From assembly GCF_000340215.1 (NCBI RefSeq), contig NW_006921541.1, positions 243,876-307,875 on the forward strand: DNA of 64,000 nt. The letters run 5' to 3'. This document shows, piece after piece, positions 5,757 to 41,832 of the stretch (its first letter is position 1; the number at the start of each line of letters is the position of its first letter). Below the pieces are notes generated by a model. The model saw only the letters and a list, made by a program, of their open reading frames with translations. It ran no database searches and had not been told where the DNA came from. Position numbers and translations under genes: made by a program. Source of the stretch: Pseudocercospora fijiensis CIRAD86 (lineage: Eukaryota > Ascomycota > Dothideomycetes > Mycosphaerellales > Mycosphaerellaceae).

Positions 5757-6618
5757 TATATTCTTTTATATACCGTTTACTATTCGGCTAGTAGTATATA
5801 CGCGATAGTAGCTCGTACGACCTCTCTATACTATAGTAACTAGCAAGCTTACTATTATAGTGCCGCTTTAAAAGCTCTTATCTAATCGATTGTTTAGCGG
5901 GGATATAGTATCTGCCCTTAAACTTTAAGTAACCCTTATTATCGATCGACTAGTTACTCTTACTAGATCGAGTCGTTCGCCTACTTACAAGCTTATTAAT
6001 ACGTTTAATAGCAAAGGCGTCCCTCTGCTAAGTACGTAATAGCTTATCTATAAACGATTAATTATCCCTATTTGTAAGGTTATTTAATAGTATCCTTACT
6101 ATCGAACGAGGTACGTATTATATATATCTAATAGTACTAGCAGCCGGAATAACTATAACCTCTTCTATAGTGCTATCGCTATAGATAGCAATATCTTTAA
6201 TCGAGTCGTTATAGCTCGAGCGATCTACGTCCTTTCTAACGCGTACTAGAAGAACGACAACTCCGCTATAGTATTTATTGCTACCGTAGGGTCCGGAAGT
6301 CCGCTTATCCTACGCTTACTTATTAATAATACGAGCTATAGCAATCTTATACTATAGGATTAGAAATAATAAATTAATATACTAAGTCTCGCTATCGTAA
6401 TTAGGTCGCCTCGGTAGGCTATTAGTAGGGTTACTTACGCCTAGCCGATATAATATATTAAAATCGATCCCGGCGAGGTAGACGGCCTATCTAGCCTGTC
6501 GACCTATAACCCTTATAATCTTAGTAATACTACGCAGGTTGTTATAGTCTATACAGACCTAAATTGTATACTAAGCACTATCGAGATAGTAGCGCTAATA
6601 CTTAAAGGCTTCTACGAT
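5757..6618 (-). pseudogene. G1 pol fragment: RNase H to integrase zinc-domain region
   Basis: The minus-strand reading aligns with 37515-38370 of the sister element. It carries the end of RNase H and the linker into the integrase HHCC domain. The DNA still shows blocks shared with the sister, such as gaccggcctatctagcct-like stretches. The right end is cut by the hAT composite at 6619. Frames contain many TAG/TAA codons. No independent function. Confidence 0.8.
6611..6618. repeat. 8-bp target-site duplication, left (hAT composite)
   Basis: TCTACGAT directly precedes the terminal TAGACCCC of the transposon and is found again at 27034-27041 just outside the right terminus. An 8-bp duplication is diagnostic of the hAT superfamily. 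Confidence 0.88.
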
Positions 6619-6690
6619 TAGACCCCGTAGTAGTTCGGGTTAGTTTAGTTTAGTTAGACCCCGTAGTAGTTCGGGTTAGTTTGGTTTAGT
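6619..6690. repeat. Left terminal inverted repeat, first 36 bp duplicated in tandem
   Basis: TAGACCCCGTAGTAGTTCGG starts at 6619 and again at 6655, separated by 36 bp. GTTTAGTTTGCTAAGCC-type sequence follows. The matching right end is at 27011-27033 in inverted orientation. The terminal duplication is absent from the internal junction at 16765. Confidence 0.8.
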
Positions 6691-6783
6691 TTGCTAAGCC
6701 GAAGATCTAGTTTGGTTTAGGTTGGTTTGCTAAGCAACTATAAGAGTAGCTGGTTCGAACTATAGAATTTATCGGTTTCTAAG

Positions 6784-7189
6784 AAGTGTAAGAATGTCTA
6801 CGTAACTCGAAGCAAGCCCTTTATAAGATACGAGAGTGTAGCCGGCAGCGTAGCCGGCGTTTTTCAGTTGTAGGAAGGTACTTATATAACCCTAAATCTA
6901 TAGGCAATTAGCTAAAGGCACTAACTAATCAAAAGCATATATACAGACAAGCTATTATAGTTTAGTTTAGAAACTGCACTTATTAGAAGTATAAGAATGT
7001 CTACGTAACTCGAAGCAAGCCCTTTATAAGATACGAGAGTGTAGCCGGTAGCGTAGCCGGCATTTTTCAGTTATAGGAAGGTACTTATATAACCCTAAAT
7101 CTATAGACAATTAGCTAAGGGCACTAACTAATTAAAAGCATATATATATATAAGCTATTATAGTTCAGTTTAGAAACTGTACTTATTAG
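6784..7189. repeat. 203-bp subterminal tandem duplication (unit A only)
   Basis: Two copies with a period of 203 bp, anchored on AGAATGTCTACGTAACTCG at 6791 and 6994. Each contains a pair of TAGCCGGC-type motifs. Unit B has a single copy (about 16864-17290, split by a solo LTR). The two copies differ mainly by C-to-T and G-to-A changes. Confidence 0.85.
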
Positions 7190-7282
7190 GTATGAATTTT
7201 ATTCTTTCGCTCGCTATTCAATTCCCTAACTGCTCGGTAGAATATTATTATCTAGATCTAGGTAGAACTCATCGATTTCCCT

Positions 7283-7840
7283 AGAAGTCCTCCTCCTTAA
7301 GAAGTTCTAATGCTTTCCTACCGAACTATTCGATAATATTAAGTACTAGGACAGCTCCTCCCTCGGTATCGGCACAGTATACAAAAGAGCTATAAGGCAG
7401 CTCTATAGAACGTTCTACTAGTTACTCGCTATACTAAGGCCGAATACTAGTTCGTTCCTTAGAACTCTTAGTTATTTAGGAGATATAAAGGGTAGGGCAG
7501 GTAGTAACTTCGTATTATATAAGGAGGTAGAGGCTGCTATAGAAGAGGCCTTTAACCTATAGAAGATAGTAAAAGATATAGAGGTAGCTGCAGGTCTAGG
7601 TACCTAGTTGAATTTCTAGTAGGTAGAGTATAAGGATATTTAGAGGGAGTATTAGGTAGAGTTGCGAAGGCAGATATATAATATGCTCTAGAAAACAGGG
7701 ATAGTGCCTATAACTATAACTATTAGGCTCTTCAACCTTCCTTATTTTTCCCTATTTTCTTTTTATAAAAATCTAAACTAATACAAATTAACCGGAATGT
7801 CTATCTTCTTTTAGTTCTTTAAAAAACCTAGTAGCGTAGC
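7283..7840 (+). pseudogene. Unidentified plus-strand frame in hAT unit A
   Basis: A plus-strand reading of about 180 codons with stops only as TAG where Gln/Trp are likely. It includes the segments SSLGIGTVYKRAIRQLY, FLRTLSYLGDIKGRAGSNF and VLYKEVEAAIEEAFN, and it looks mostly helical. It faces the other genes of the unit. A good intron acceptor (TACTAAC...TTTTAG, about 7893-7908) lies downstream, so a further exon is possible. A four-copy 12-bp TAGCCGGC array follows at about 7838-7880. I do not recognise the family. Conservation of the frame in unit B (17371) supports coding. Confidence 0.5.
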
Positions 7841-8191
7841 CGGCAGCGTAGCCGGCAGCGTAGCCGGCAGCGTAGCCGGCCTTTTTACTCCTTAGTACTA
7901 ACGGGATTTTAGGAGACTTCTATTCTATACGGCTAATAAAGTATACTATACTATATATATATGCTTAGAGAGTATTTAGAGCGCGGTATACAGCGCCGTA
8001 TAACAGCGGCTTATTTCGTATATAGAAAAGCTTATAGATAATACTACGAATATCCTTCCTACTAGAATATCTATCCTATCTAGTACCGTCTCGAATATAG
8101 ACATTCTAGCCTTTTAGAATCTAATCGAGTGCTTTGAAATCCTTGTCTATAATCGTTATACGCTTCGCGTAGATAGCTATAAGGTTAACCG

Positions 8192-8239
8192 CTAAAATAG
8201 TATTAGTATAGTCCGAAAAGAGGTAGAAGAGAAATATAT
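8192..8239 (-). other. H3-1 intron 2 (unit A), 48 bp
   Basis: Donor GTATAT (seen in unit B; ATATAT in A), a branch ACTAAT and acceptor TTTTAG. Removal joins ...TTC-GAA-T to CG-GTT-AAC, giving FESVNL, which aligns with the FEDTNL region of H3. No TAGCCGGC motif is present in it. Confidence 0.8.
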
Positions 8240-8422
8240 ATTCGAAGATACGAACTAGGTAGGCTTCTATAGCCTCTTAAAGGGCGCCTATCGCGGAGGC
8301 TTAGAAGCGAAGGTCCGTTCTATAATCCTAGGCAATTTCGCGAATAAGTCGTTAGAAAGGAGCTTTGCGGATTAGGAGCTTAGAACTCTTCTAATACTAC
8401 CGAATCTAACGGAGGGCTACGG

Positions 8423-8537
8423 CTAAAGAAGGATTAGTAAAAAGACAGTAAGAATGCCGGCTACGCTACCGGCTACGCTACCGGCTACGCTACCGGCTAC
8501 GCTGCCGGCTACGCTACCGGTTATAAATAGGACTTAC
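8423..8537 (-). other. H3-1 intron 1 (unit A), filled by a TAGCCGGC array
   Basis: Donor GTAAGT (complement of 8532-8537), branch TACTAAT and acceptor CTTTAG (ending at 8423). Splicing joins GGA-A to CC-GTA-GCC, restoring the H3 GTVALR motif exactly, which is strong proof of the intron. About five 12-bp units of the GCCGGC/TACGCT type fill it. Unit B has a shorter array here (79 bp) and its donor reads ATAAGT. Confidence 0.85.
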
Positions 8538-8809
8538 TTCCTAGGCGCTATCGACGCTTCGCACGATTACTACTAGTAGCAGAAGCGCTAGTTATCGTCT
8601 TACGTAGAGCCTTGCCCGCCGTTGTCTTACGCGGAGCCTTACTCGCGACGCCCTTTCTAGTACCGGAGCTAGCGGTAGTAGTAGCAGCTCTCTTAAGTTA
8701 ATGTACTATACTCGTTCTACTATTTCCGGTCTTATTGCGACCCGTAGAAGTACTAGGTCCCTTCTTATAAGGCGTCGTAACTTAGTTAAGTAGACTCGCT
8801 ATTATAAAA

Positions 8810-9343
8810 GTCGTCGAATTGAGGAAAAAAGTGCGTTACGAAGGTATACGAAGGCGCGCGCGGAGCGAGGGTATTACGGAGGTAGTAGATATAGAGCGTA
8901 GAGGTATAGGTATCGATACGAAGGTTGAATATAGCGGTAGTATCGCGGTATCGCTAGGTAATAGAGTAAGCTTCGCGTAAGCCTACATTATAGTAACGTT
9001 AGAGCAAGGAAAGAAGGTAGGTACGGCTAAAAAAGGCAGGTACGGCTAAAAAAGGCAGGTACGGTAGACTTTGAAATATAGCCGGTATATATAGCCGGTA
9101 TAGTAATAGGCGAAAGCCTCCTTTTAATAAATAGCCGGCGTAATAATAGTATCCTACTATAGTATAGATATTCTTTAGTAATGCCTTTACTAGCTATAGT
9201 AATCTTATAAGTAACCTAGGCCTATTGCTAGTAAATATAAGAAATATTAGATAGGCTATACTAAACAAGCTAGTTATTTAGTAGGAAAAGGCCTACTACC
9301 GTCTCTATATGCCGGCTACGAGTGCCGGCTATCGCTCTAAATT
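8810..9343. other. Intergenic stretch between H3-1 and the 361-bp repeats (unit A)
   Basis: No convincing gene. It holds a short tandem of GGTACGGCTAAAAAAGGCA (about 9018-9062) and TAGCCGG motifs at 9074-9100, 9132 and 9309-9330. It lies upstream of H3-1 on the minus strand and so probably contains its promoter. No TATA box could be trusted in such TpA-rich DNA. Confidence 0.5.
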
Positions 9344-10065
9344 CAACTCCGCCCTATCTCGGAGGCTAAGGTACCGAGCGGAAACCCTATAGCTTATATT
9401 TACTCGGTTATCGCGGAGCGCTTATAGGTAAGGTATTAGAAAAGAGTATAAAAAGTACGAGAAGAGTATCCTAGGATATAGGTCGTAAGTGAATAAGAGT
9501 AGTACGCCTAGTTATTTATATAGTACGTTACTCTATACGACTAAGAGCCTATATTATCTTATGCTTCGCTTATAAGACCTCGACTCTACTAGCATACTAT
9601 CGATCTCCTCCTCGGTCGCTAATACGCTGTCTTAATTCTTCTTCGAGTTGCCGGACTTAGTACGTATCTATAGCTATGTAATAGCGCTACGTATTATAGA
9701 GAATCAACTCCGCCGTATCTCGAAGGCTAAGGTACCGAGCGGAAATCCTATAGCTTACATTTACTCGGTTATCGCGGAGCGATTATAGGTAAGGTATTAG
9801 AAAAGAGTATAAAAAGTACGAGAAGAGTATCCTAGGATATAGGTCGTAAGTAAATAAGAGTAGTACGCCTAGTTATTTATATAGTACGTTACTCTATACA
9901 ACTAAGAGCCTATATTATCTTATACTTCGCTTATAAGACCTCGACTCTACTAGTATACTATCGATCTCCTCCTCGGTCGCTAATACGCTATCTTAATTCT
10001 TCTTCGAGTTGCCGGACTTAGTACGTATCTATAGCTATATAATAGCGCTACGTATTATAGAGAAT
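9344..10065. repeat. 361-bp tandem duplication (unit A), possible coding remnant
   Basis: Copies 9344-9704 and 9705-10065 are about 95% alike and start at CAACTCCGCC. A plus-strand reading gives KAKVPSGNPIAYIYSVIAERL and then a Lys/Arg/Glu-rich helix-like stretch (KVREEYPRI). A minus-strand reading is also fairly open. I could not decide the strand or recognise a family. Unit B has the same duplication with a 353-bp period. Confidence 0.75.
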
Positions 10066-10431
10066 TTCTCGTTAAAGTTTCTCTCTCGTAGGCTTGCTAT
10101 CTACCTCGTAGTATAGAGGATTAAAGTACTAATACTAAAGAATCTCCTTATAGTTAGGATGCTAGGGCTCCTTAGGACCTTTATATTTTAGGTCTAAATA
10201 GAGACGTATTATAAACGTTCTATCGCCCTTTCGCTTACTACTCGCTAGATCGCGATATACGAAGAAACTAATCTAAATATAGCTCGTCTCTATAATAGCC
10301 GGGTAAATATAGAGCGCTAGGTTTCTACTTCGTACCTTAGATTTAGGGACGGCGCGGAGATAAAATCAGAAATATAGCCGGCACCTATAGCCGGCAAAAG
10401 GATACGAAAATAGGCCTCCTCTTAGGTTAAT

Positions 10432-11097
10432 CTAACGACTAAATACAATTTCCAACTAATCCGCTATAAACCGACGCCGAATTTTAGCTAGAAGCTATAT
10501 ATCTTTATTTTAAAGAGTAACCCGCTTCGTATAGGTAGTAAGGAGGTTTAAAAGCTTAGGCTCGGTTACGAGAAATGCCTCCGTAGCTTCCTAAAAAGCA
10601 CTAATCGCCTTAGCCGTAAATCGTATACTAGACCGAAAATCTAATATAATTTCTCGGACGAGTCGCTAGAAGGGAGTCTTAGGGATTAAAAGCTCGGTCC
10701 CTCTTTTGTTTTAGAAAAGCCGGATCTAGCGAAGGGTAATAGTATCTAGTTTAAAGCGCCGCTTCTTTATCGTCGAGTCCTGCTTTATTCCCTTTCTTTT
10801 AATAGAAAGATAACTTTTCTTCGCGATAGTCTTCGTCCGCCTACTCTTTTTAGCCTTCTCCTATCTATCTATAGCCTTCTTGTTTTTCGGTACTGTTTTC
10901 CGAGGAACCCCCTTCCTTCGTATATACTACGGAGAGCCTTACTCTTCCGATATCTCGTTCTCGCTACGGTCTCCCTATACTTAGCTTGCTTTACCTTTGC
11001 CCTTTAGCCTCTAAAGATATTTATCTACGCGTTTAGGCGACGAGGGTATATCGATAGGACCTAGAAAATTAATAAGTATATAATCGTAAGGAGATAT
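10432..11097 (-). pseudogene. H3-2 (unit A): second, divergent histone H3-fold gene
   Basis: Starts at an ATA (ATG in unit B) followed by SPYDYILINFLGPIDIPSS. A long, very basic N-terminal region of about 125 residues follows (KKSRRTKTIAKKSYL, IKKRRFKLDTI). Then comes an H3 histone fold: TITLRxIRLF, TELLIPKTPF, RLVREIILDFRSSIRF, AISAF with EATEAFLV, then YTKRVTL and NKDI ending KIRRRFIAD. Helix and loop spacing equal canonical H3 except for two extra residues before TELLI. The canonical tail marks are absent. No intron is needed. It sits just downstream of the transposase on the same strand and differs from H3-1 at most fold positions, so the two are old paralogues or separate captures. A CenH3-like role was considered, but loop 1 is not extended. 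Confidence 0.85.
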
Positions 11098-11409
11098 TAA
11101 TGCTTCTTACCTTCTAGAACAAATAGTCTTCTATTAAACCGCTTTAGTAGATTATCGTTAGATTCGAATAAAGGATAGTAGCTTAAGGAAGGGGAGGTAG
11201 CCGGCTTAGGAAGGCCCGAAGAGCCGAATCCTTAAGGTATATTTGTCTTTAAGAATATAGGGAAAAGGAAGAAGGAGAGGAAGAGCGAATAGAGAATTAG
11301 AAATAGTCCGTAGGTAAGCGGGGTCGGTTGCTATAGCAACTAGTCTATTTAGGTCCTAGGAATTCGAAATATATTCCGGATATATACCGGCTATATACGC
11401 CGGCTATAT
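11098..11409. other. Spacer between transposase end and H3-2 (unit A)
   Basis: About 300 bp without a gene. It carries TAGCCGGC near 11199 and a CCGGATATATACCGGCTATATACGCCGGC cluster near 11376-11404, which are isolated copies of the motif that fills the introns. It probably holds the H3-2 promoter and the transposase 3' UTR. Confidence 0.45.
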
Positions 11410-12756
11410 TACCTTATACGTAAACGCTTCGTCTCCTTAAAGCTACTCTAAGCCTATATACGTTTCCGCTTCTCGATCCGGTATCGCCTTCTACCTCCGC
11501 TCTCTTCCTCTTCGTTATCGCTAATTAGGGTTTCGCTTAGACTAAATTTCGTATTCTCTTCGCGCTTCTAGGTTTCTTCGATCTTAAGGTTTTCTAATTC
11601 CTCGATTAACTTCTTTAGTATAATCTTTAGTAACCTGCCTTAGCGATTCTAGTAGAGGAGATAGTATCGGAATACTATAATAGATTCGAAGATAGTAGGC
11701 GAGTATATTCGATTAAAGCGGCCCTAGTAACGAGCGATACTAAAAGACCTCTTATAGCCTATACCTACGCTCGGGATAGCGAGGACGTCCCGAGCGACCG
11801 ACGCTATCGTTAGAAACTTAGGCTCTAACCGCTACTATATAGCGAGAATATCGTCTCCGAATTCGTCTAGAAGACTAGTAAGATCTAGAGATTATTAGCC
11901 CTCTTTCCGAGCCTACGGGTTTATACTTACTCGCGCGCCGATAGAGATCGAACTCTTCTTTATTTACTTTAGTAGTTGCTTCCTCTTCTACCTCTACTTC
12001 CTACCTACGAAACAGATATAATATCGGAATCTTCTAAACCTTCTTTTTCTTTATAGGAGCTGCATCTAGACTAGTTTCTTTCCGACGCTCGTAGAACATC
12101 TTTTCTAGAATAGTCTAGTAATACTTCGGCTATACCTCGTTTGCCTTCTATTCCGGCCTCTACTAGTATATATCCTTTTCTACCGGGTTAAGCAAGTACG
12201 TAACGCTATAGATATCCCCGAACGACTTAAAGGTAGCACTATAATATTTATATAACTTAGTATAGGAGGTGTCTATAGCTTTCGTTATAGCTACTTTCTA
12301 GGGAACGCTCTTCTTAGCTAGCTTAGCTACGGTTTCCTCGAGCTCGTTAAAGAGCTAGTTATAGTACGTAAAGACAAGGTAGATCGTCGGTCCTCGGATT
12401 CTTCTAATCGTAGTAGTAACCTTCGCGTAATACTTACTAATATCGACGAGATACTCTACTTAGCGCTATTCGGCGGCGGTAAGGCCGAGCTACTTAATAT
12501 CCTCGGAACTCTAATAGATCTCGAAAGCGGTACGTAAAGTATATCCCCTCGTAACTATATAGAAAGTCGAATCGAACCGGGTCTTAACGTCTTAGGTAAA
12601 ACGGAGTAGGCGCTAAGGAGGCCGCTTTTGCTATCGCTTATTCTATACGATATTCTAGGTATCGGTTTTAGGGCGCTCGATTAGGTTCTTTTAAATAGCC
12701 TCGAATCGGTTATATCTCTATAAGCTCGAGTTCGTATATATTGCTAGACGACGAAG

Positions 12757-12825
12757 CTAGAGAAAAAGAGTTAGAACTATACTAGGTTACTAGCTATAGG
12801 TGCCGGCTACGGACAAAAGTTGTAC
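12757..12825 (-). other. Transposase intron with GCCGGC motif (unit A)
   Basis: Donor GTACAA, branch TTCTAAC, a pyrimidine tract and acceptor CTCTAG. It contains TAGCCGGC once in A and two GCCGGC-type copies at the matching site in B (about 23102-23120). Confidence 0.65.
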
Positions 12826-13780
12826 CTTATATAAAACGAGAGCGAGGCTCTCTACCTTATCCTATCTTATTGCTATAATAAGTTTCTCGACTTTCGACTT
12901 TGCTTTATCCTTATCTAGGATCTTCTATTAGTCGTCGTTTAATAGTGTAATTTTAAGCGTCTTAAAGAGGGCTCGGATCGCGATTTAAACTATATAAGCG
13001 AAGTAGGGAAACTTCTATAGGGATATAACTAGTAACGACGTCGGCTCCGATTTAATAAGGCTAGGGCTATTAATAGGCTCCTCTTTATCGTTATTATCGT
13101 ACGTATTGTCGTACGTATCCGGAATCGTAGCGAGCTTAATATTCGGAAGATTAAGCTAGATTGTAGACCTTGTAATCTCCTCTACGTACTCGACCCTATC
13201 GATACAATTAGTGATTTTAAAGATATATACGAGTAAATTGTATATATAATGCCTTATATAATGTTCGATTATTACTAGCGTTGTCCGTAGTAATCGAGAT
13301 CAGTTTCGTTATTACGCTAACCCTATCTATTACCGTATAGACAAGCTTCGCTATATCCTTACTAGTATAGGAACCTAGAATTTTAGGGAATCCGATTATA
13401 AGTTCCTAGAGTTTCTAATCCGAATTAATAAAGTATAGTATAATCGAGAGGAAGGAGGCTCTTATAGTCCGGCTTAACTAGCTATCGATAGTAATAGCTA
13501 CTCGGCGAGTATTACGGAGGATCTCCCGAATGTCGTCTAACGTAGCCTCTTTGTTCTTTTCGAATATAATACGCTAGGTTGTCGCGCCGAGAAATAGGGG
13601 AGGGTAGTTTGTAAGATATAGGTATATCTTCTATATAGACTCCCTTTCGTAGAAGTCTTCTAGAAGACCGTTTATAGCTAGTATTTCGTTTGCTAGTTGC
13701 TTAAAGTCTTCGGGGGAGAAATCGGTAGCCTTTAATCCTAGAGCTTCCTTAAGCGTAGCTTATAATAATTAGCTAGACCT

Positions 13781-13885
13781 CTACGGTTAATTTAGGTAGC
13801 CGGAATCTATAGCCGGAATCTATAGCCGGCAGCTATAGCCGGCAGCTATAGCCGGTAGCTATAGCCGGTATTTTAGAAGACGTAC
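13781..13885 (-). other. Probable transposase intron with a TAGCCGGC array (unit A)
   Basis: Donor GTACGT, branch-like ATTAAC and acceptor CGTAG flank about six copies of GCCGG separated by AGCTATA or AATCTATA. Unit B has fewer copies (about 24108-24152). Frame continuity across it was not fully verified. Confidence 0.5.
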
Positions 13886-15215
13886 CTCTTTCTAGAACGC
13901 TATATCTATATTAACTCTCCTCTCTCCTTAAGATTCCCGATACCGTTTAGAATAGAGATAGTTCGTAGGCGATAAGTTCCTATCCCCTAGTTTCGGGTAT
14001 TTCAAGATTAAACCGTAGAAGTTACAGATAATTACTAGTTAACCTTTAAGTCGAGAAGTCGTATAACGGTATAATGCCCCCTCTATAAAGAACTTCTAGA
14101 ATATATCCGTTCGCTCCTTACTTCCCTATCGTATCGAGTACTTCCGGAGTTTATACTCCTTTAAACGTAAGCATAAAGGGAACTATATCTTATAAACCTA
14201 TTAATTGAACTGCTCTATATACTCGGGTTTCTAAAGATACGCCTAGCTAGCCTTTTCGAAGATTTCCGGATTAATACTCGATGTTCTTATATCTCCGAAT
14301 AACCTTCTACTTAGACTCCGTAAAGGTAAGGACTAGGTAGTAGTACCCTATAATAAATTCCTACTACTAGGATTCGGAGAGGATAAATCTAGCCCTAATC
14401 GTCGTCTAGGACTTAATAGGCTCGAAGGTAAGTATACGACCTCCTCTCGACGATGTCGCAATCTCGCTCGTATACTAGACTATTTCGACTATCGTCTCGT
14501 TGTTACCCTTCCTAGTATAGTGCCTAGTATATATACAATGTCGGTCGGTATGTTTTAAGGTTTCGTACGGTAAGGTAAGGACTTAGGAGTAGTAGATATA
14601 TACTAGTAGCTATAGGGAAACACCCTTTCTTTTATAGTATCGTATCGTTAGGAATAGCTAGGTAGTAAATAGCTAGCTACCTTTTTTTTTGTTTCCTAGC
14701 TATCTAACTACTAGATTTCTTTTCCCTAGCTACCCTAGCTAGCCTAACTACTAGAATTTCTTTCCTAGCTACCCTAACTACCTAAATTTTGCCTTCTATA
14801 CGGCGGCTCTCTCCTACTAACGGAACCGAGCTACTATACCTAACGAATCTAAGCTCGTTTTTAGTCTTAATCTATCCTCTTTTAGTATAAGACACTCGAT
14901 AAGTAAATGCTTAGGCCGAGTCTAACTACGAAACCTAAGACTAACTAATAGCTCTATTAACTAATCCTAATCCTCGAACTCCTTCCGCTTCTTAGTAAAG
15001 ACCTTAAAGAGCGCTCGAGCTTCTTCGGGTACCTACGGAGTAGTCGAGATAAAGCTATATCGCTAAAATAGGTAATCCTTCGGAGGCTTATATAGAGATT
15101 TAGAGAATTCTAACGCTAACCTATCCTACTAGTAGCTTAGATTCCGGATACAAGCCCTCTCTGCCTTAGTAAAGATTTTATATAGTAGTAGTACTCTGCC
15201 TTCGAGAAACGCTTT

Positions 15216-15263
15216 CTATTTAACTATTAGTATCTGCCGGCTACGAACGCCGGCTATATATAC
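15216..15263 (-). other. Intron 2 of the unidentified gene (unit A), 48 bp with two TAGCCGGC motifs
   Basis: Donor GTATAT, branch TACTAAT and acceptor AAATAG. Removal joins CTA-TAC-TCG to AAA-GCG-TTT in frame. Two GCCGGC copies occupy most of it. Confidence 0.7.
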
Positions 15264-15762
15264 CGAGTATAGAATAATTACCTATACCCCTTCCTCCTAT
15301 AGTAATACTTCTACCGTCCCTAGATACCTAGCCCCGATTGTATTAATCGCAAGCTACTTTGCCTTTATAGATGTAAAGGCTTCGCTCTAATACTAATAAA
15401 GAAACTTCTACTCTATATCGAGGATATAAAGACGACTAGTCTCGATTCTAATCCTTGCTAGCTTTTCGTAGTAGCTTTAACTATAATTTTCTAGATTAAT
15501 AGGACTTATGCCTTAGCCCTTTACTAGTATCTCGTCTCTTTAACTGTACTCGATCTACTCCTAGCGCTTATCGTCTATAGCGTTAGGCCCTAAGACTATA
15601 CCTATTACTAGATCGACGTATAGTATCTCCTCGCTTTTTTTAGTTCCTTTATTCGTAGTATTAAGCTCTATCGCGGCATCCTAAACCCTAGTATTATTGT
15701 TCTCGGCTATCTAAATATCTCCGTTACTATCGGTTGTATCGATAGAGGTAGCGGCTATAGGT

Positions 15763-15869
15763 CTAAATACTATTAGTTAACGTGTTAAAGAAAAATATGC
15801 CGGCTATAGCTGCCGGCTACGGCTACCGGCTATAGCTACTAGCTACGGCCGCTAGCTAGATTAACTTAC
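15763..15869 (-). other. Intron 1 of the unidentified gene (unit A), with a TAGCCGGC array
   Basis: Donor GTAAGT, branch TTAACTAAT and acceptor TATTTAG. Splicing keeps the frame (GTA-GC|A-CCT-ATA-GCC). Four to five GCCGG-type copies lie inside. At the donor, unit B reads GCAAGT, so A may be a RIP derivative of a GC-AG intron. Confidence 0.7.
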
Positions 15870-16289
15870 GCTACTAGAACTTTACGCTCGAAAACTGGCC
15901 GCAATTCTTTCCTCCTCTTAGCCTTCTCTTAGGTTGTCTTCTTATTCTAACCTTCACTTTTTTCTATAGGCGCTAGCTATCGATAGAATGCCTTATTCCG
16001 CGCCTTTCTTCTCTTATCCTTAGCTCTTTTATCTTTATCTATCTTCTCCTTTCTCTCGCGGTCTCGTACGGAATTCTTCTTCGTAGAGTACTCCTCTTTA
16101 GTCTTACGCTTTTTAGTTAGACGCTTAGGTAAAACAAACTCGCGCTCTTTAGTTCTATCTTCTATTTCGCGCGCGGCGCGCTTCTCTCTTACTATTATAA
16201 GGGAAAGGGGCGGGGGCGTAGCGTATAGTAGTTATTGTCGGTATAGGTATAGAGGAAGAAGTTAAAAGTATAAGAATATCGCGAAGCCC

Positions 16290-16765
16290 TAATTATTGCC
16301 GCCTACGTAACGTTATATAGGTAAGCTTTCGCAACTACGGCAACTACGCCCCGGCAATAGCAACTACGCCCTAGCAACGGCAACTACGCCCTAGCAACGG
16401 TAATAAAGCGTAGTAAATACAACCTAGTAACTATTATAGCCGGCAATCGTAGCCGGCAGTCGAATAAGAGTGTCCTTATAGCAAAACTACGCCCTAGCAA
16501 CGGTAACTACGCCCTAGCAACGGTAACTACGCCCTAGCAATAGCAAAAGAGCGTAGTAAATATAATAGAGTTACTATTATAGCCGGCAATCGTAGCCGGC
16601 AGTCGAATAAGAGTGTCCTTATAGTAAAACTAATATAGTCTCTAGTTCAAACTAGGAATCTATATAGTTCGAAAAAACCAAACCGGAACTAGGGAGCTAG
16701 TTCGCCGCTAAGAAACCAAACTATATACGTTTAGTAGTTCGGAAACCGAACTAGTGCAGGGTCTA
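16290..16765. repeat. Right subterminal repeat region and internal right terminus of unit A
   Basis: Two clusters of a 20-bp repeat, CAACTACGCCCTAGCAACGG (16341-16400 and about 16485-16544). Each is followed by a TAGCCGGCAATCGTAGCCGGC block (about 16437-16460 and 16573-16596) and a shared GTCGAATAAGAGTGTCC segment, so the region is a roughly 150-bp higher-order repeat. The terminus (ACCGAACTAGTGCAGGGTCTA) ends at 16765. Such subterminal repeats are typical transposase-binding regions of hAT elements. Confidence 0.75.
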
Positions 16766-16883
16766 AGTTTAGTTTGCTAAGCCGAAGATCTAGTTTAGTT
16801 TAGGTTAGTTTGCTAAGCAACTATAGGATTAGCTAGTTCGAACTATAGAATTTATCGGTTTCTAAGAAGTGTAAGAATGTCTA

Positions 16884-17081
16884 TATAAGAAGGGTTATAT
16901 TAGCAGGTAGATAGGGTAGTAGTAGGTTAGTATAGTATTCGATAGAGATCTAAGAGGAGAGGGAGGAAGGCAGGCTAGTTAGCCTAACGCTAAGCGCTAA
17001 GCCCTGCCTAAGGCATTAGGACCCTAGCTTCACTCGAACCTAGTTACATACTAATTACGCATAACCTCTTTAGTCCTAATA
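16884..17081 (-). mobile_element. Solo LTR of the G1/G3 gypsy family inside unit B
   Basis: A 198-bp sequence matching the LTRs at 30373-30568, 34916-35113 and 41630-41827, starting TATAAGAAGGG and ending AGTCCTAATA. It is flanked by 5-bp duplications GTCTA at 16879-16883 and 17082-17086. Unit A has the uninterrupted site (AATGTCTACGTAACTC at 6794). It is given the minus strand only because the family members with coding sequence are minus here in the same LTR orientation. Confidence 0.92.
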
Positions 17082-17370
17082 GTCTACGTAACTCGAAGCA
17101 AGCCCTTTATAAGATACGAGAGTGTAGCCGGTAGCGTAGCCGGCATTTTTTAGTTATAGGAAGGTACTTATATAACCCTAAATCTATAGACAATTAGCTA
17201 AGGGCACTAACTAATTAAAAGCATATATATATATATATAAGCTATTATAGTTTAGTTTAGAAACTACACTTATTAGGTATAAATTTTATCCTTTCGCTCG
17301 CTATTTAATTCCCTAACTGCTCGGCAGAATGTTATTATCTAGATCTAGGTAGAACTTATCGATTTCCCTA

Positions 17371-17880
17371 GAAGCCCTCCTTAAGAAGTTCTAACACTTT
17401 CTAACTAAACTATTCTCTAATAATAAGTACTAGGATAGCTCCTCCCTCGGTATCGGTATAGTATATAAAAGAGCTATAAGGTAGCTCTATACAACGTTCT
17501 ACTAGTTACTCGCTATACTAAGGCCGAATACTAGTTCGTTCCTTAGAACTCTTAGTTATTTAGGAGATATTAAGGGTAGGGTAGGTAGTAACTTCGTATT
17601 ATATAAGGAGGTAGAGGCTACTATAGAGGAGTCCTTTAACCTATAGAAGATAGTAAAAGATATAGAGGCAGCTGTAGGTCTAGGTACCTAGTTGAATTTC
17701 TAGTAGATAGAGTATAAGGATATTTAAAGGGAGTATCAGATAGAGTTGCGAAGGCAGGTATATAATATAGTCTAGAAAACAGGGATAATGCCTATAACTA
17801 TAAGCATTAGGCTCTTTAATCTTCCTTATTTTTCCCTGTTTTCTTTTTATAAAAATCCAAACTAATACAAATCAACCGGA
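17371..17880 (+). pseudogene. Unidentified plus-strand frame in hAT unit B
   Basis: Counterpart of 7283-7840, with the same frame and segments (GIGTVYKRAIRQLY, FVLYKEVEATIEESFN). A 3-bp deletion near the start keeps the frame, which argues for past coding. Product not recognised. Confidence 0.5.
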
Positions 17881-18159
17881 ATATCTATCTTCTTTTAGTT
17901 CTTTAAAAAACCTAGTAGCGTAGCCGGTAGCGTAGCCGGTAGCGTAGCCGGTAGCGTAGCCGGCCTTTTTACTTCTTAGTACTAACGGGATTTTCGAAGA
18001 CTTCTATTCCGTACGGCTAATAAAGTATACTATACTATATATATATACTTAGAGAGTATTTAGAGCGCGGTATATAGCGCCGTATAATAGCGGCTTATTT
18101 CGTATATAGAAAAGCTTATAGACGATACTACGAACATCCTTCCTACTAGAATATCTATC

Positions 18160-18853
18160 CTACCTAGCACTATCTCGAATATAGACATTCTAGCCTTTTA
18201 GAATCTAATCGAGTGCTTTAAAATCCTTCTCTATAATCGTTATACGCTTCGCGTAGATAGCTATAAGGTTAACCGCTAAAATAGTATTAGTATAGTCTAA
18301 AAAGAGGTAGAAGAGAAATATACATTCGAAGATACGAACTACGTAGGCTTCTATAGCCTCTTAAAGGGCGCCTATCGCGGAGGCTTAGAAGCGAAGGTCG
18401 GTTCTATAATCCTAGGCAATTTCGTAAATAAGTCGTTAGAAAGGAGCTTTATAGATTAGGAGATTAGAACTCTTCTAATACTTCCGAATCTTACGGAGGG
18501 CTACGGCTAAAGAAGGATTAGTAAAAAGATAGTAAGAATGCCGGCTACGCTACCGGCTACGCTACCGGCTATAAATAGGACTTATTTCCTAGGCGCTATC
18601 GACGCTTCGTACGATTGTTACTACTAGTATTAGAAGCGCTAGTCGTCGTCTTACGTAGAGCCTTGCCTACCGTTGTCTTACGCGGAGCCTTACTCGCGAC
18701 GCCCTTTCTAGTACCGGAGCTAGCGGTAGTAGTAGTAGCCTTCTTACGTTAATATACTATACTCGTTCTACTATTTCCGGTCTTATTACAATCCGTAGAA
18801 GTAGTAGGTCCCTTCTTACAAGGCGTCGTAACTTAGTTAAGTAGACTCGGTAT
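18160..18853 (-). pseudogene. H3-1 (unit B): histone H3-like gene
   Basis: Counterpart of 8076-8802, with the same three-exon structure: exon 1 18853-18586, intron 18507-18585, exon 2 18506-18324, intron 18276-18323 and exon 3 18275-18160. The intron 2 donor GTATAT is intact here. The intron 1 donor reads ATAAGT, so this copy would be expected to splice poorly. The array in intron 1 is shorter than in unit A. The H3 tail and fold motifs are retained through the RIP stops. Confidence 0.85.
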
Positions 18854-19381
18854 TATAAAAGTCGTCGAATTAAGGAAAAAAGTACGTTACGAAGGTATAC
18901 GAAGGCGCGCGTAGAGCGAGGGTATTACGGAGGCAGTAGATACAGAGCGTAGAGGTATAGGTATCGATACGAAGGTTAAATATAGCGAGAGAGATACTAT
19001 CGCGATATCGCTAGGTAATAGAGTAAGCGTCGCGTAAGCCTAGATTATAGTAACGTTAGAGTAAGGAAAGAAGGCAGGTACGGCTAAAAAAGGCAGGTAC
19101 GGCAAACTTTGAAATATAGCCGGTATATATAGCTAGTATAGTAATAGGCGAAAGCCTCCTTTTAATAAATAGCCGGCGTAATAATAGTATCCTACTATAG
19201 TATAGATATTCTTTAGTAATGCCCTTACTAGCTATAGTAATCTTATAAGTAACCTAGGCCTATTGCTAGGAAATATAAGAAATATTAGGTAGGCTATACT
19301 AAACAAGCTAGTTATTTAGTAGGAAAAGGCCTACTACCGTCTCTATATACCGGCTACGAGTGCCGGCTATCGCTCTAAATT

Positions 19382-20090
19382 TAACTCTGCCCTATCTCGG
19401 AGGCTAAGGTACCGAGCGGAAACCCTATAGCTTATATTTACTCGGTTATCGCGGAGCGCTTATAGGTAAGGTATTAGAAAAGAGTATAAAAAGTACGAGA
19501 AGAGTATCCTAGGATATAGGTCGTAAGTGAATAAGAGTAGAACGCCTAGTTATATATATAGTACGTTACTCTATACGACTAAGAGCCTATATTATCTCGT
19601 ACTTCGCTTATAAGACCTCGACTCTACTAATATACTATTAATCTCCTCCTCGGTCGCTATCTTAATTCTTCTTCGAGTTGCCGGACTTAGTACGTATCTA
19701 TCGCTATATAATAGCGCTACGTATTATAGAGAATTAACTCCGCCGTATCTCGAAGGCTAAGGTACCGAGCGGAAATCCTATAGCTTATATCCACTCGGTT
19801 ATCGCGGAGCGATTACAGGTAAGGTATTAGAAAAGAGTATAAAAAGTACGAGAAGAGTATCCTAGGATACAGGTCGTAAGTAAATAAGAGTAGTACGCCT
19901 AGTTATTTATATAGTACGTTACTCTAAATAACTAGGAGCCTATATTATCTTACACTTCGCTTACAAGACCTCGACTCTATTAGTATACTATCGATCTCCT
20001 CCTCGGTCGCTAATACGCTATCTTAATTCTTCTTCGAGTTGCCGGACTTAGTACGTATCTATCGCTATACAATAGCGCTACGTATTATAG
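19382..20090. repeat. 353-bp tandem duplication (unit B)
   Basis: Counterpart of 9344-10065. Copies begin at 19382 and 19735. The first copy lacks a TAATACGC block and a few other bases, so the period is 353 rather than 361. Confidence 0.75.
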
Positions 20091-20461
20091 AGAATCTCTC
20101 GTTAAAGTTTCTCTCTCGCAGGCTTACCATCCACCTCGCAGCACAGAGGATTAAAGTGCTAATACTAAAGAATCTCCTTATAGTTAGGATACTAGGGCTC
20201 CTTAGGACCTTTGTGTTTTAGGTCTAAATAGAGATGCATTATAAACGTTCTATCGCCCTTTCGCTTACTACCTACTAGGTCGCGATATGCGAAGAAACTA
20301 ATCTAAATATAGCTCGTCTCTATAATAGCCGGGTAAATATAAAGCGCTAGGTTTCTACTTCGTACCTTAGATTTACGGACGGCGCGGAGATAAAATTAGA
20401 AATATAGCCGGCACCTATAGCCGGCAAAAGGATACAAAAATAGGCCTCCTCCTAGGTTAAT

Positions 20462-21127
20462 CTAACGACTAAATACAATTTCTAACTAATCCGCTATAAA
20501 CCGACGCCGAATTTTAGCTAGAAGCTATATATCTTTATTTTAAAGAGTAACCCGCTTCGTATAGATAGTAAGGAGGTTTAAAAGCTTAAGCTCGGTTACG
20601 AGAAATACCTCCGTAGCTTCCTAAAGAGTACTAATCGCCTTAGCCGTAAATCGTATACTAGACCGAAAATCTAATATAATTTCTCGGACGAGTCGCTAGA
20701 AGGGAGTCTTAGGGATTAAAAGCTCGGTCTCTCTTTTATTTTAGAAAAGCCGGATCTAGCGAAGGGTAATAGTGCCTAGTTTAAAGCGCCGCTTCTTTAT
20801 TATTAAGTCCTGCCTTATTCCCTTTTTTTTAATAGAAAGATAACTTTTCTTCGCGATAGCCTTCGTCCGCCTACTCTTTTTAGCCTTCTCCTATCTACCT
20901 AAAGCCTTCTTATTTTTCGGTACTATTTTCCGAGGAACCCCCTTCCTTCGTATATACTACGGAGAGTCTTACTCTTCCGATATCTCGTTCTCGCTACGGT
21001 CTCCCTATACTTAGCTTACTTTATAATTGCCCTTTAGCCTCTAAAGATATTTATCTACGCGTTTAGTCGACGAGGGTATATCGGTAGGACCTAGAAAATT
21101 AATAAGTATATAATCGTAAGGAGACAT
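20462..21127 (-). pseudogene. H3-2 (unit B): divergent histone H3-fold gene, ATG retained
   Basis: Counterpart of 10432-11097. The initiator is a true ATG (complement of 21125-21127), followed by SPYDYI, which fixes the start chosen for unit A. The long basic N terminus and the H3 fold (RLVREI, EATEAFLV, TKRVTL) are readable with TAG/TAA at Gln sites. Confidence 0.83.
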
Positions 21128-21483
21128 TTATACTTCTTACCTTCTAGAATAAATAGTCTTCTATTAAACCGCCTTAGTAGGTTATCGTTAAATTCGTATA
21201 AAGGATAGTAGCTTAAGGAAGGGGAGGTAGCCGGCTTAGGAAGGCCCGAAGAGCCGAATCCTTAAGGTATATTTATCTTTAAGAATATAGAGAAAGGGAA
21301 GAAGGATAGGAAGAGCGAATAGAGAATTAGAAATAGTCTGTATATAAGCGGGGTAGGTTGCTATAGCAACTAGTCTATTTAGGTCCTAGGAATTCGAAAT
21401 ATATTAAAGATATATACCGGCTATATACGCTAGCTATATTACCTTCTATATAAACGCTTCGTCTCCTTAAAGCTACTCTAAGC

Positions 21484-24400
21484 TTATATACGTTTCTACT
21501 TCTCGACCTAGTATCGCCTTCTACCTCCGCCCTCCTCCTCTTCGTTATCGCTAATTAGGGTTCCGCTTAAACTAAATTTCGTATTCTCTTCGCGCTCCTA
21601 GGTTTCTTCGATCTTAAGGTTTTCTAATTCCTCGATTAAGTCCTTTAGTATAATCTTAAGTGTCCTATATTAGCGACTCTAGCAGAGGAGATAGTATCGG
21701 AATACTATAATAGATTCGAAGATAGTAGGCGAGTATATTCGATTAAAGCGGCCCTAGTAACGAGCGATACTAAAAGACCTCTTATAGCCTATACCTACGC
21801 TCGGGATAGCGAGGACGTCCCGAGCGACCGACGCTATCGTTAGAAACTTAGGCTCTAACCGCTACTATATAGCGAGAATATCGTCTCCGAATTCGTCTAG
21901 AAGACTAGTAAGATCTAGAGATTATTAGCCCTCTTTCCGAGCCTACGGGTTTAGTACTTACCCGCGCGCCGATAGAGATCGAACTCTTCTTTATTTACTT
22001 TAGTAGTTGCTTCCTCTTCTGCCTCTATTTCCTACCTACGAAATAGGTATAATATCGGAGCCTTCTAAACCTTCTATTTCTTTATAGGAGCTATATTTAG
22101 ACTAGTTTCTTTCCGACGCTCGTAGAATATCTTTTCTAGAATAGTCTAGTAATACTTAGGCTATTCCTCGTCCCCCTTCTATTCTAGCTTCTACTAGTAT
22201 ATATCCTTTTCTACCGGGTTAAGCAAGTACGTAACGCTATAGATATCCCCGAACGACTAAAAGGTAGCACTATAATATTTATATAACTTAGTATAGGAGG
22301 TATCTATAGCTTTCGTTATAGCTACTTTCTAGAGAACGCTCTTCTTAGCTAGCTTAGTATCAGCTAGTAACCGGCCCTACACCTATAGGCTAGTTTTGAG
22401 CCTATATAAGAGGCCTCCTTCTATAGAGTAGATAGATTATTAACCTCGTATAGCACATTGTTTATGTTGCACTTCTACAATGCCTATATTACAGGGCTCT
22501 CGTTACTAGTCTAAGCGACAGTCTCGTTATCCTATTATGCTAAATATAGCTGCCTATATTGCTATAGGTTATGTTACCCTCGGTTGCCTATACTATTGCT
22601 GCTAGTAGTAGTAGTAGTGTTAGTTTCCGTCCTTTATTAGCTACGGTTTCGTCGAGCTCGTTAAAGAGCTAGTTATAGTACGTAAAGATAAGGTAGATCG
22701 TCGGTCCTTAGGTTCTTCTAATCGTAGTAGTAACCTTCGCGTAATACTTACTAATATCGACGAGATACTCTACTTAGCGCTATTTAGCGGGAGTAAGCCC
22801 GAGCTACTTAATACCCTCGGAACTCTAATAGATCTCGAGAGCGGTACGTAAAGTATATCCTCTCGTAACTATATAGAAAGTTAAATCGAACCGGGTCTTA
22901 ACGTCTTAGGTAAAACAGAGTAGGCGCTAAGGAGGCCGCTTTTGCTATCGCTTATTCTATACGATATTCTAGGTATCGGTTTTAGGGCGCTCGATTAGGT
23001 TCTTCTAAATAGCCTTAAATCGGTTATATCTCTATAAGCTCGAGTTCGTATATATTACTAGACGACGAAGCTAGAGAAAAAGAGTTAGAACTATACTAGG
23101 TTGCCGGCTACGGGTACCGGCTACGGACAAAAGTTATACCTTATATAAAACGAGAGCGAGGCTCTCTACCTTATCCCGTCTTATTACTATAACGAGTTTC
23201 TCGACTTTCGACCTTGCTTTATCCTTATCTAGGATCTTCTATTAGTCGTCGTTTAATAGTATAATTTTAAGCGTCTTAAAGAGGGCTTAGATTGCGATTT
23301 AAACTATATAAGCGAGATAGGGAAACTTTTATAGGGATATAACTAGCATCGACGTCGGCTCCGATTTAATAGGGCTAGGGCTATTACTATGCTCCTCTTT
23401 ATCGTTATTATCGTACGTATTATCGTACGTATCCGGAATCGTAGCGAGCTTAATATTCGGAAGATTAAGCTAGATTATAGACCTTATAATCTCCTCTACG
23501 TACTCGGCCCTATCGATACGATTAGTAATTTTAAAGATATATACGAGTAAATTATATATATAACGCCTTATATAATATTCGATTATTAGTAGCGTTGTCC
23601 GTAGTAATCGAGATTACTTTCGTTATTACGCTAACCCTATCTATTGCCGTATAGACAAGCTTCGCTATATCCTTACTAGTATAGGAACCTAGAATTTTAG
23701 GGAATCCGATTATAAGTTCCTAGAGTTTCTAATCCGAATTAATAAAGTATAGTGTAATCGAGAGGAAGGAGGCTCTTATAGTCCGGCTTAACTAGCTATC
23801 GATAGTAATAGCTGCTTAGCGAGTATTACGGAGGATTTCCCGAATATCGTCTAACGTAGCCTCTTTATTCTTTTCGAATATAATACGCTAGGTTGTCGCG
23901 CCGAGAAATAGGGGAGGGTAGTTTATAAGATATAGGTATATCTTCTATATAGACTCCCTTTCGTAGAAGTCTTCCGGAAGACCGTTTATAGCTAGTATTT
24001 CGTTTGCTAGTTACTTAAAGTCTTCTAGGGAGAAATCGGTAGCCTTAAATCCTAGAGCTTCCTTAAGCGTAGCCTATAATAATTAGCTAGATCTCTACGG
24101 TTAATTAAAGTAGCCGGCAGCTGTAGCCGGCAGCTATAGCTGGCAGCCGTAGCCGACATTTTAGAAGACGTACCTCTTTCTAGAACGCTATATCTATATC
24201 AACCCTCCTCTCTCCTTAAGATTCCTAATACTATTTAGAATAGAGATAGTTCGTAGGCGATAAGTTCCTATCCCCTAGTTTCGGGTGTTTTAAGATTAAA
24301 CCGTAGAGGTTATAGACAATTACTAGTTAACCTTTAAGTTAAGAAGTCGTATAACGGTATAATGCCCCCTCTATAAAGAACTTCTAGAATATATCCGTTC

Positions 24401-24880
24401 GCTCCTTACTACCCTATCGTATCGAGTACTTCTGGAGTTTATACTCTTTTAAACGTAAGTATAAAGGGAACTATATCTTATAGACCTATTAATTAAACTG
24501 CTCGGTATACTCGGGTTTCTAAAGATACGTCTAGCTAGCCTTTTTAAAGATATCCGGGTTAATACTCGATATTCTTATATCTCCGAACAACCTTCTACTT
24601 AGACTCCGTGGACCGTAAAGGTAAGGACTAGGTAGTAGTACCCTATAATAAATTCCTACTACTAGGATTCGGAGAAGATAAATCTAGCCCTAACCGTCGT
24701 CTAGAACTCGATAGGCTCGAAGGTAAGTATACGACCTCCTCTTAACGTTATCGCAATCTCGCTCGTATACTAGACTATTTCGACTATCGTCTCGTTATTA
24801 CCCTTCCTAGTATAGCGCCTAGTATTTATATAATATCGGTCGGTATGTTTTAAAGTTTCGTACGGTAAGGTAAGGACTTA
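21484..24880 (-). pseudogene. hAT transposase, unit B, disrupted by a 279-bp insertion
   Basis: Counterpart of 11410-14600, with the same catalytic and dimerisation landmarks (for example GYKRSFSIARY near 21800 and TRFDLTFYIVTRGY near 22850). An LTR-like insertion at 22358-22636 breaks it in the region just before the catalytic centre is completed, in addition to the RIP stops. One Leu for Ser change in the TRFDSTF motif is RIP-like. Confidence 0.88.
22358..22636 (+). mobile_element. 279-bp LTR-like insertion, poorly mutated by RIP
   Basis: Absent from unit A (compare 12316-12335). Flanked by TTAG (22354-22357 and 22637-22640). It starts TATCAGCTAG, has a TATA-box-like CCTATATAAGAGG near 22411, and a TAGTAGTAGTAGTAG run near its end. 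Unlike all surrounding DNA it keeps many CpA and TpG dinucleotides (GCACATTG, TTATGTTGCAC), so it probably arrived after RIP or escaped it. It is probably a solo LTR of another family. The ends are not clean TG...CA, so this is tentative. Confidence 0.65.
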
Positions 24881-25074
24881 GGATTAGTAGATATATACTA
24901 GTAGCTATAGGGAAATACCCTTTCTTTTATAGCATCGTATCGTTAGGAATAGCTAGGTAGTAAATAGCTAGCTACCTTTTTTTTTGTTTCCTAGCTACCT
25001 AACTACTAGATTTTTTTCCTAGCTACCCTAGCTAGCCTAACTACTAGAATTTCTTTCCTAGCTACCCTAACTAC

Positions 25075-26462
25075 CTAAATTTTGCCTTCTATACGGCGGC
25101 TCTCTCCTACTAACGGAACCGAGCTACTATACCTAACGAATCTAAGCTCGTTTTTAGTCTTAATCTATCCTCTTTTAGTATAAGACACTCGATAAGTAAA
25201 TGCTTAGGCCGAGTCTAACTACGAAACCTAAGACTAACTAATAGCTCTATTAACTAATCCTAATCCTCGAACTCCTTCCGCTTCTTAGTAAAGACCTTAA
25301 AGAGCGCTCGAGCTTCTTCGGGTACTAACGGAGTAGTCGAGATAAAGCTATATCGCTAAAATAGGTAATCCTTCGGAGGCTTATATAGAGATTTAGAGAA
25401 TTCTAACGCTAACCTATCCTACTAGTAGCTTAGATTCCGGATACAAGCCCTCTCTGCCTTAGTAAAGATTTTATATAGTAGTAGTACTCTGCCTTCGAGA
25501 AACGCTTTCTATTTAACTATTAGTATCTGCCGGCTACGAACGCCGGCTATATATACCGAGTATAGAATAATTACCTATACCCCTTCCTCCTATAGTAATA
25601 CTTCTACCGTCCCTAGATACCTAGCCCCGATTGTATTAATCGTAAGCTACTTTGCCTTTATAGATGTAAAGGCTTCGCTCTAATACTAATAAAGAAACTT
25701 CTACTCTATATCGAGGATATAAAGACAACTAGTCTCGATTCTAATCCTTACTAGCTTTTTGTAGTAGCTTTAACTATAATTTTCTAGATTAATAGGACTT
25801 ATACCTTAGCCCTTTACTAGTATCTCGTCTCTTTAACTATACTTGATCTACTCCTAGCGCTTATCGTCTATAGCGTTAGGCCCTAAGACTATACCTATTA
25901 CTAGATCGACGTATAGTATCTCCTCGCTTTTTTTAGTTCCTTTATTTATAGTATTAAGCTCTATCGCGGTATCCTAAACTCTAGTATTATTATTCTCGGC
26001 TATCTAAATATCTCCGTTACTATCGGTCGTATCGATAGAGGTAGCGGCTATAGGTCTAAATGCTATTAGTTAACGTCTTAAAGAAAAATATACCGGCTAT
26101 AGCTGCTAGCTACGGCCGCTAGCTAGATTAACTTGCGCTACTAGAACTTTACGCTCGAAAGCTAGCCGCAATTCCTTCCTCCTCTTAGCCTTCTCTTAGG
26201 TTATCTTCTTATTCTAACCTTTACTTTTTTCTATAGGCGCTAGCTATCGATAAAATGCCTTATTCCGCGCCTTTCTTCTCTTATCCTTAGCTCTTTTATC
26301 CTTATTTATCTTCTCCTTTCTCTCGCGGTCTCGTACGGAATTCTTCTTCGTAGAGTGCTCCTCTTTAGTCTTACGCTTTTTAGTTAGATACTTAGGTAAA
26401 ACAAACTCGCGGTCTTTAGTTCTATCTTCTGTTTAGCGCGCGGCGCGCTTCTCTCTTACTAT
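25075..26462 (-). pseudogene. Large unidentified gene of hAT unit B
   Basis: Counterpart of 14780-16195 with the same exon order and segments. Intron 2 (matching 15216-15263) is conserved with both GCCGGC copies near 25530-25555. The intron 1 array is reduced to one or two degenerate copies near 26090-26115. Function not recognised. Confidence 0.63.
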
Positions 26463-26579
26463 TATAGGGAAAAGGGGCGGGGGCGTAGCGTGTAGTGGTT
26501 ATTATTAGTGTAGGTATAGAGGAAGAAGTTAAAAGATATAAGAATATCGCGAAGCCCTAATTGTTGCCGCCTACGTAAC

Positions 26580-27033
26580 GTTATATAGGTAAGCTTTCGC
26601 AACTATAGTAACTACGCCCCGGTAATAGCAACTACGCCCTAGTAACGGTAACTACGCCCTAGCAACGGCAACTACGCCCTAGTAACGGCAATAGAGCGTA
26701 GTAAATATAACCTAGTAACTATTATAGCCGGCAATCGTAGCCGGTAGTCGAATAAGAGTGTCCTTATAGTAAAACTACGCCCTAGTAACGGCAACTACGC
26801 TCTAGTAACGGTAAAAGAGCGTAGTAAATGTAACATAGTTACTATTATAGCCGGCAATCGTAGCCGGCAGTCGAATAAGAGTGTCCTTATAGTAAAACTA
26901 ATATAGTCTCTAGTTTAAACTAGGAATCTATATAGTTCGAAAAAACCAAACCGGAACTAGGGAGCTAGTTCGCCGCTAAGAAACTAAACTATATACGTTT
27001 AGTAGTTCGGAAACCGAACTACTATAGGGTCTA
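26580..27033. repeat. Right subterminal repeats and outer right terminal inverted repeat
   Basis: Four 20-bp units (about 26609-26688) and a second smaller cluster (about 26775-26815), each followed by TAGCCGGCAATCGTAGCCGG. The terminus ACCGAACTACTATAGGGTCTA ends at 27033 and is the RIP-altered inverse of the left end at 6619. Confidence 0.8.
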
Positions 27034-27041
27034 TCTACGAT
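27034..27041. repeat. 8-bp target-site duplication, right (hAT composite)
   Basis: TCTACGAT, second copy of 6611-6618. G1 RNase H/RT sequence resumes at once. Confidence 0.88.
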
Positions 27042-30360: not shown

Positions 30361-30372
30361 GATCGAATACTA

Positions 30373-41600: not shown

Positions 41601-41629
41601 ACTGCCCTTAAAGGGTAGATTAAATACTA

Positions 41630-41827: not shown

Positions 41828-41832
41828 TAAGG

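Follow-up and report, generated by a model that had tools for sequence, protein, structure and literature searches.

Does the DNA transposon at this locus carry real histone H3 genes, or has it merely swept up H3 sequence? We addressed this question in a window of 64,000 nucleotides from Pseudocercospora fijiensis CIRAD86 (the window being the whole stretch of DNA analysed) and in the genome around it (73.9 Mb, 30 contigs). Taken as a whole, the locus is very likely best explained as a RIP-damaged, doubled hAT element of a family whose two H3 genes were probably once coding, one of them, H3a, being spliced and most likely derived from a gene.

A doubled hAT insertion

The window segment 6619-27033 is one insertion made of two hAT units in tandem, which are ~93% identical to each other (Table 1). 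The element is a hAT, as judged from its 8-bp target duplication and its terminal inverted repeats, and 8-bp target duplications are a hallmark of hAT elements, as a published account also states (PMC6710886). When compared by eye, the first 20 nt of the left and right inverted repeats differ by two transitions only. A related, diverged repeat at ~38370 contains the target site and lacks the hAT element. RIP indices are high across the whole window (TA/AT 1.70-2.61).

The stretch with TTDNAS, a motif of hAT transposases, is a candidate for part of the transposase. No Pfam transposase match was obtained for the window copy, the search returning one weak unrelated family under the cut-off, and a PDB search with one transposase segment gave no useful match. 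Genome searches for DUF659 and for the dimerisation domain gave 21 and 47 matches, respectively, none of those listed being inside the window. Dhillon et al. 2019 report DUF659 for their family and, in the available text, no dimerisation domain (PMC6710886).

The surroundings of the insertion are themselves repetitive. RIP-damaged retroelement repeats lie at 27040-30566, 38374-41825, 1-837 and 36659-37501 of the window, and one copy of this repeat hosts the hAT insertion. Within 27100-36998 the minus strand matched reverse transcriptase, RNase H and Tf2-1-like sequences and, weakly, a chromo domain. The segment 30370-35121 resembles an LTR element, in that direct repeats of ~0.2 kb (30370-30566 and 34918-35121) enclose plus-strand matches to reverse transcriptase and RNase H; its 0.2-kb repeat recurs at 41627-41835 and within hAT unit 2 at 16881-17081. 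Inside the hAT units, a ~361-bp tandem repeat lies between H3a and H3b (9343-10065 and 19381-20095), and this stretch had no blastn match in the five subfamily-B copies compared.

Table 1 Features of the hAT insertion in the window
Feature	Position	Strand	Remarks
Left 8-bp target site duplication	6611..6618	.	TCTACGAT; identical right copy at 27034..27041
Left terminal inverted repeat	6619..6641	+	starts TAGACCC
hAT unit 1	6619..16765	-	~10.1 kb; genes on minus strand; right inverted repeat ends at 16765
H3a, whole gene, unit 1	about 8106-8805	-	
H3a exon 3	8106..8191	-	NLIAIYAKRITI... to ILKG, then stop codon
H3a intron 2	8192..8239	-	48 nt; donor AT in unit 1, GT in unit 2
H3a exon 2	8240..8422	-	TVALR... 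to ...IFE; first part of histone fold
H3a intron 1	8423..8537	-	115 nt; GTAAGT ... CTAAT ... TAG; contains 12-bp tandem repeat
H3a exon 1	8538..8805	-	N-terminal extension and H3-like tail; K9, K14, K18, K23, K27 in register
H3b, second H3 gene, unit 1	10459..11049	-	intronless; 12 in-frame stops
C-terminal transposase-like stretch, unit 1	12004..12654	-	assigned by eye; repeated in genome, without Pfam hit
hAT transposase-like stretch, unit 1	13220..13759	-	TTDNAS motif; weak DUF659-locus match (45% over 33 aa, E 6e-4)
hAT unit 2	16766..27033	-	tandem copy without outer left end
H3a region, unit 2	18034..18951	-	
H3b, unit 2	20489..21079	-	12 in-frame stops
Right 8-bp target site duplication	27034..27041	.	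TCTACGAT

Two H3 genes as apparently fixed parts of a high-copy family

The original prediction placed an H3 gene on the minus strand, readable after the splicing of two introns. We confirm this observation: after in-silico splicing, tail and core of the gene join in both units, and histone matches were obtained. With stops written as X, the minus-strand H3a core in unit 1 matched Pfam Histone at E 2.7e-15; the spliced H3a of copy L013, treated in the same way, matched solved H3 chains across tail and core (E 9.7e-40). Only H3a had been noticed originally; a second H3 gene, H3b, was found here in each unit. The H3b of unit 1, likewise on the minus strand and with stops as X, matched Pfam Histone at E 1.5e-17, and the contiguous H3b of L013 matched solved H3 chains at E 7.6e-27. 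The two H3 genes of unit 1 scored 64.5 and 57.2 bits against a Pfam cut-off of 26.4. H3b of unit 1 has a long K/R-rich tail that could not be placed in the H3 register. The stops in all four H3 genes of the window are RIP damage, and H3a of unit 1 has 11 of them in frame; with 11 or 12 stops in each H3 gene for which they were counted, the window copies cannot make the proteins.

A genome search with Pfam Histone gave 772 candidates, with 150 scored matches, and 148 of these 150 had internal stops. From the 148 loci we fetched 40 (the best 38 and two chosen for a shorter match), a sample that favours well-preserved copies. H3b was matched in 40/40 and most of H3a in 39/40, with L043 cut short. 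Subfamily A comprises 35 of the 40 loci together with the window units, and subfamily B comprises five, with 74-81% identity in the main matches (and 68% in an additional short segment of L017); both subfamilies carry the two H3 genes. The element is thus a RIP-damaged tandem member of a high-copy hAT family with two diverged H3 genes in each element.

First-look searches with parts of the element gave 378 candidates for the transposase, 407 for H3a and 412 for H3b, 40 being scored in each case. Absence of the H3 segment from related hAT elements had been named as an outcome that would speak against the original prediction; H3b was instead found at the expected place for all 40 scored transposase matches of the 378, by coordinates in 23 (offsets 2176-2204 nt) and by fetched DNA in 17, one of these over only 243 nt. 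To judge from these 40 matches, H3 appears to be integral to the element rather than inserted into it later.

Intron-like segments in H3a

To describe the introns, we aligned 41 H3a copies, namely 39 loci and the two window units. Intron 2 was 48 nt long in 40 of the 41, with CTAAT near its end and a terminal TAG, and it began with GT in 18 copies and with AT in 22; the AT donor is preceded by T, as a RIP-type change would require. The intron 1 pattern was recognised in 38 of the 41 copies, with a GT donor in 37 and AT in one (window unit 2). Divided by three, the length of intron 1 left a remainder of 1 in 36 of these 38 copies and of 2 in the other two, and because it is not a multiple of three, the unspliced tail and core of H3a stand in different frames. 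In-silico splicing gave ...RLG-TVALR... in both window units, which confirms that GTVALR is restored across intron 1 as had been proposed. By eye, with stops disregarded, the spliced frame is kept from the start of the H3-like tail through to the gene's end in 37 of these 38 copies, the sole exception being L016, which has a frame shift in exon 2. L017 failed both intron patterns, and L022 and L027 failed that of intron 1; L042 differs further upstream in H3a, beside unreadable sequence, and L048 has a frame-changing indel in H3b. The 12-bp tandem repeat CCGGCTACGCTA (7833-7880, 8457-8520, 17915-17963 and 18541-18571) occurs both in H3a intron 1 and downstream of the gene, and its length in intron 1 differs among elements.

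The second intron of the host H3 gene (L001) lies in codon Gly44 in phase 1, and H3a intron 1 lies in codon Thr45, one codon away and in the same phase. With its two intron-like segments, H3a resembles an ordinary spliced gene in its sequence rather than a processed fragment. Because intron 1 is one codon from the host intron, the most likely source of H3a is a genomic H3 gene rather than a transcript; alternatively, its introns could have been gained after the capture of a transcript.

This description differs from the published one. In the available text of Dhillon et al. 2019 (PMC6710886), introns are reported as absent and a captured transcript is inferred; ten near full-length copies are taken as intron-free, 94% of copies are said to resemble the third exon only, and the second of two H3 copies is given a 16-residue insertion. 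We infer that H3a is this second copy, and the ten intron-free copies may be H3b. A stopless intron of 48 nt, together with an intron 1 that shifts the frame, would explain the published 16-residue insertion as well as some of the seeming third-exon fragments. Among the open-access titles listed, none pointed to a follow-up on introns in the element H3.

The H3a tail and its lysines

The lysines at positions 9, 14, 18, 23 and 27 had been proposed to be kept in the H3a tail. This holds in both window units, but the later lysines are shifted in 20 of 34 subfamily-A copies. Of the 34 A copies read, 14 have a single nine-residue tail unit, KAPRKTTAG or a close variant, and 20 have two; the doubled unit moves the later lysines, so the register past the first unit is kept only in the shorter form. 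The tail of L047, in subfamily B, is longer. Individual copies differ; L019, L021, L032 and L023, for instance, have lost Arg26. As to the predicted 50-residue N-terminal extension, an in-frame stretch of ~48 codons is present, but none of the copies inspected shows a Met codon where it begins, and the stretch is unreadable in L042.

We compared the subfamily-A tail of unit 1, RKGVASKAPRKTTAGKALRKT, with 21 host residues and found that K/R were kept at 8/8 positions and other residues at 4/13 (p 0.002, one string). For subfamily B, whose string XKQTTGKAPRKTTAGKTPRKT was assembled by eye, the corresponding numbers were 7/7 and 5/13 (p 0.01, one string). This contrast between K/R and other residues could stem partly from RIP, because RIP seldom hits Lys codons.

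Signs of a coding past

RIP transitions would distort dN/dS, which was therefore replaced by a count of transversions, changes that RIP cannot make, between subfamilies A (35 to 37 copies) and B (four or five). In the cores of both genes, transversions were found at 22/189 third positions versus 19/379 first and second positions (p 0.004); the excess had a p value of 0.013 for H3a alone and 0.12 for H3b alone. The tails showed no third-position excess between the subfamilies (9/173 vs 31/348). H3a exons differed more between A and B than its introns did (52/525 vs 1/138, p 4e-5), and they differed no less than much of the flank, where 3/97 positions differed on one side and 11/126 on the other. 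Majority indels between A and B were multiples of three in 6/6 cases within the two reading frames (3, 27, 3; 3, 6, 21), versus 0/5 outside them, intron 1 included (1, 13, 1, 17, 13). The selection signal at H3a and H3b is thus weak, and the pattern carries signs of a coding past and no strong constraint. We consider it reasonably probable that both H3 genes of the element had a real protein-coding past, and rather doubtful that the element gained a benefit from making H3 proteins.

Origin of the two genes and alternative explanations

In copy L013 the H3a core is identical to host H3 at 57/81 positions and to H3b at 46/81, and H3b is identical to host H3 at 48/88. A tree of eight sequences grouped H3a with H3b (support 83, long branches), and the two genes have changes in common, for example Leu65 to Thr/Ala and Ala127 to Leu. 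A protein homologue search with H3b gave no match at 1e-5 (62 candidates). The search with H3a retained four proteins out of 2496 candidates. A canonical-like H3 core plus an extension is present in two of them, another is diverged and the last is partial. The diverged one (P0003), a database protein of 157 aa, is an H3 with an altered tail and has KAPF in its core, as in the element H3.

In an active element, both H3 would have been real protein-coding genes. H3a, captured most likely as a genomic gene and not as a transcript, would have been spliced, and its product was probably a variant H3 that could enter nucleosomes and be modified at its tail lysines.

DNA transposons are well known to capture pieces of host genes, which favours a passenger account, in which a hAT caught H3 sequence by chance and amplified it without its ever being useful, before RIP destroyed the copies. 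The RIP-type stops in the element copies that were read agree with such a history, as do the H3a exons, which are no better conserved between subfamilies than the flank. It fits poorly with the presence of two H3 genes in both subfamilies, with splice signals and a frame retained in H3a, with indels that keep to multiples of three in coding sequence and not outside it, and with tails in which every K/R compared was kept while other residues changed. A hAT of Pyrenophora with an expressed H3-like gene (PMC3538342) also speaks against it, though no similarity between the two hAT sequences was found (PMC6710886). This account, which is the view of Dhillon et al. 2019 as far as the available text goes (PMC6710886), is a serious possibility that nonetheless falls short of being probable. 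The same paper reads the two copies as the outcome of a single capture of a spliced H3 transcript, with a 16-residue insertion gained afterwards by the second. The lack of an intron in H3b and the union of H3a and H3b in the small tree would agree with this; the 16 codons of H3a, however, are 48 nt that lie midway through the histone fold and carry splice signals (donor, branch and acceptor), and intron 1 joins tail and core in frame at nearly the site, and in the phase, of the host intron, which makes this reading very unlikely.

The genes might also have been taken from the host at different times, H3b early and from a transcript, H3a later and from a gene. The H3a core is indeed nearer to host H3 than to H3b, and the two genes differ in intron content, but the tree unites them, with the reservations of sample and branch length given above, and they have substitutions in common; separate captures are in our estimate unlikely. 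The data are compatible with one H3 capture as well as with two. A further candidate source is the centromeric H3 (CenH3) rather than ordinary H3, to which the long divergent tails and the fast core would be suited. CenH3 has a longer first loop than ordinary H3, whereas the stretch from the first to the second helix has ordinary H3 length in both genes in a typed alignment, and the top-scoring PDB chains bear the names H3.3, H3.6 or H3. A CenH3 origin was set aside on loop length and is extremely improbable. The gene-derived, once-coding H3 pair is the preferred reading.

Comparison with known H3-carrying transposons

The original prediction knew of no described family of DNA transposons with H3, and in this it was mistaken: such hAT elements have been published by Manning et al. 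2013 (PMC3538342) and Dhillon et al. 2019 (PMC6710886), so the finding as first given is not new. What is new is the intron evidence, which corrects the published account in that one H3 copy looks spliced and not like a processed fragment.

We infer that the element belongs to the family of Dhillon et al. 2019, described from P. fijiensis and five relatives (PMC6710886). According to the available text, full elements of that family have two H3 genes, one of them longer by 16 codons, with an original, open-frame H3 on scaffold/contig 6, an 8-bp duplication, a 20-bp inverted repeat that includes two sites of RIP type, damage by RIP and hundreds of copies, all of which is common to the element described here. 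The family is stated to have intronless H3, which is true here of H3b and not of H3a with its two intron-like segments; this mismatch calls for a corrected description rather than for a denial of membership. The units are also slightly longer here (~10.1 kb vs 9.5-9.9 kb at full length), and two of them stand in tandem inside one target duplication, unlike the elements in the available description.

The hAT of Pyrenophora tritici-repentis (PMC3538342) likewise has an H3-like gene, H3L, between its inverted repeats, with insertions in the tail, and its protein is reported to be neither canonical H3 nor CenH3, as here. Unlike the present element, it is about 5.6 kb long with a single H3L, ESTs were seen, and its 26 copies are very similar and mostly intact. 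No sequence similarity between this hAT and that of the Dhillon family was found, according to the accessible part of the later report (PMC6710886). That the element altered chromatin through its H3, as originally suggested, would be a hypothesis; Manning et al. 2013 had already raised aberrant nucleosomes and asked whether they alter chromatin (PMC3538342), and the reading of H3a as a spliced gene makes this question about a transposon histone easier to test. One might imagine that the element made its own H3 pair, a spliced H3a with modifiable tail lysines and an H3b with a private tail, and escaped silencing by using the pair in nucleosomes, either on its own DNA or in the host, in which case unrelated hATs would have arrived at this strategy twice; we regard this as speculative and quite unlikely. 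The Pyrenophora and Pseudocercospora elements thus stand as two H3-carrying hATs, one with a single expressed H3-like gene and the other with two RIP-damaged H3 genes, of which one looks spliced.
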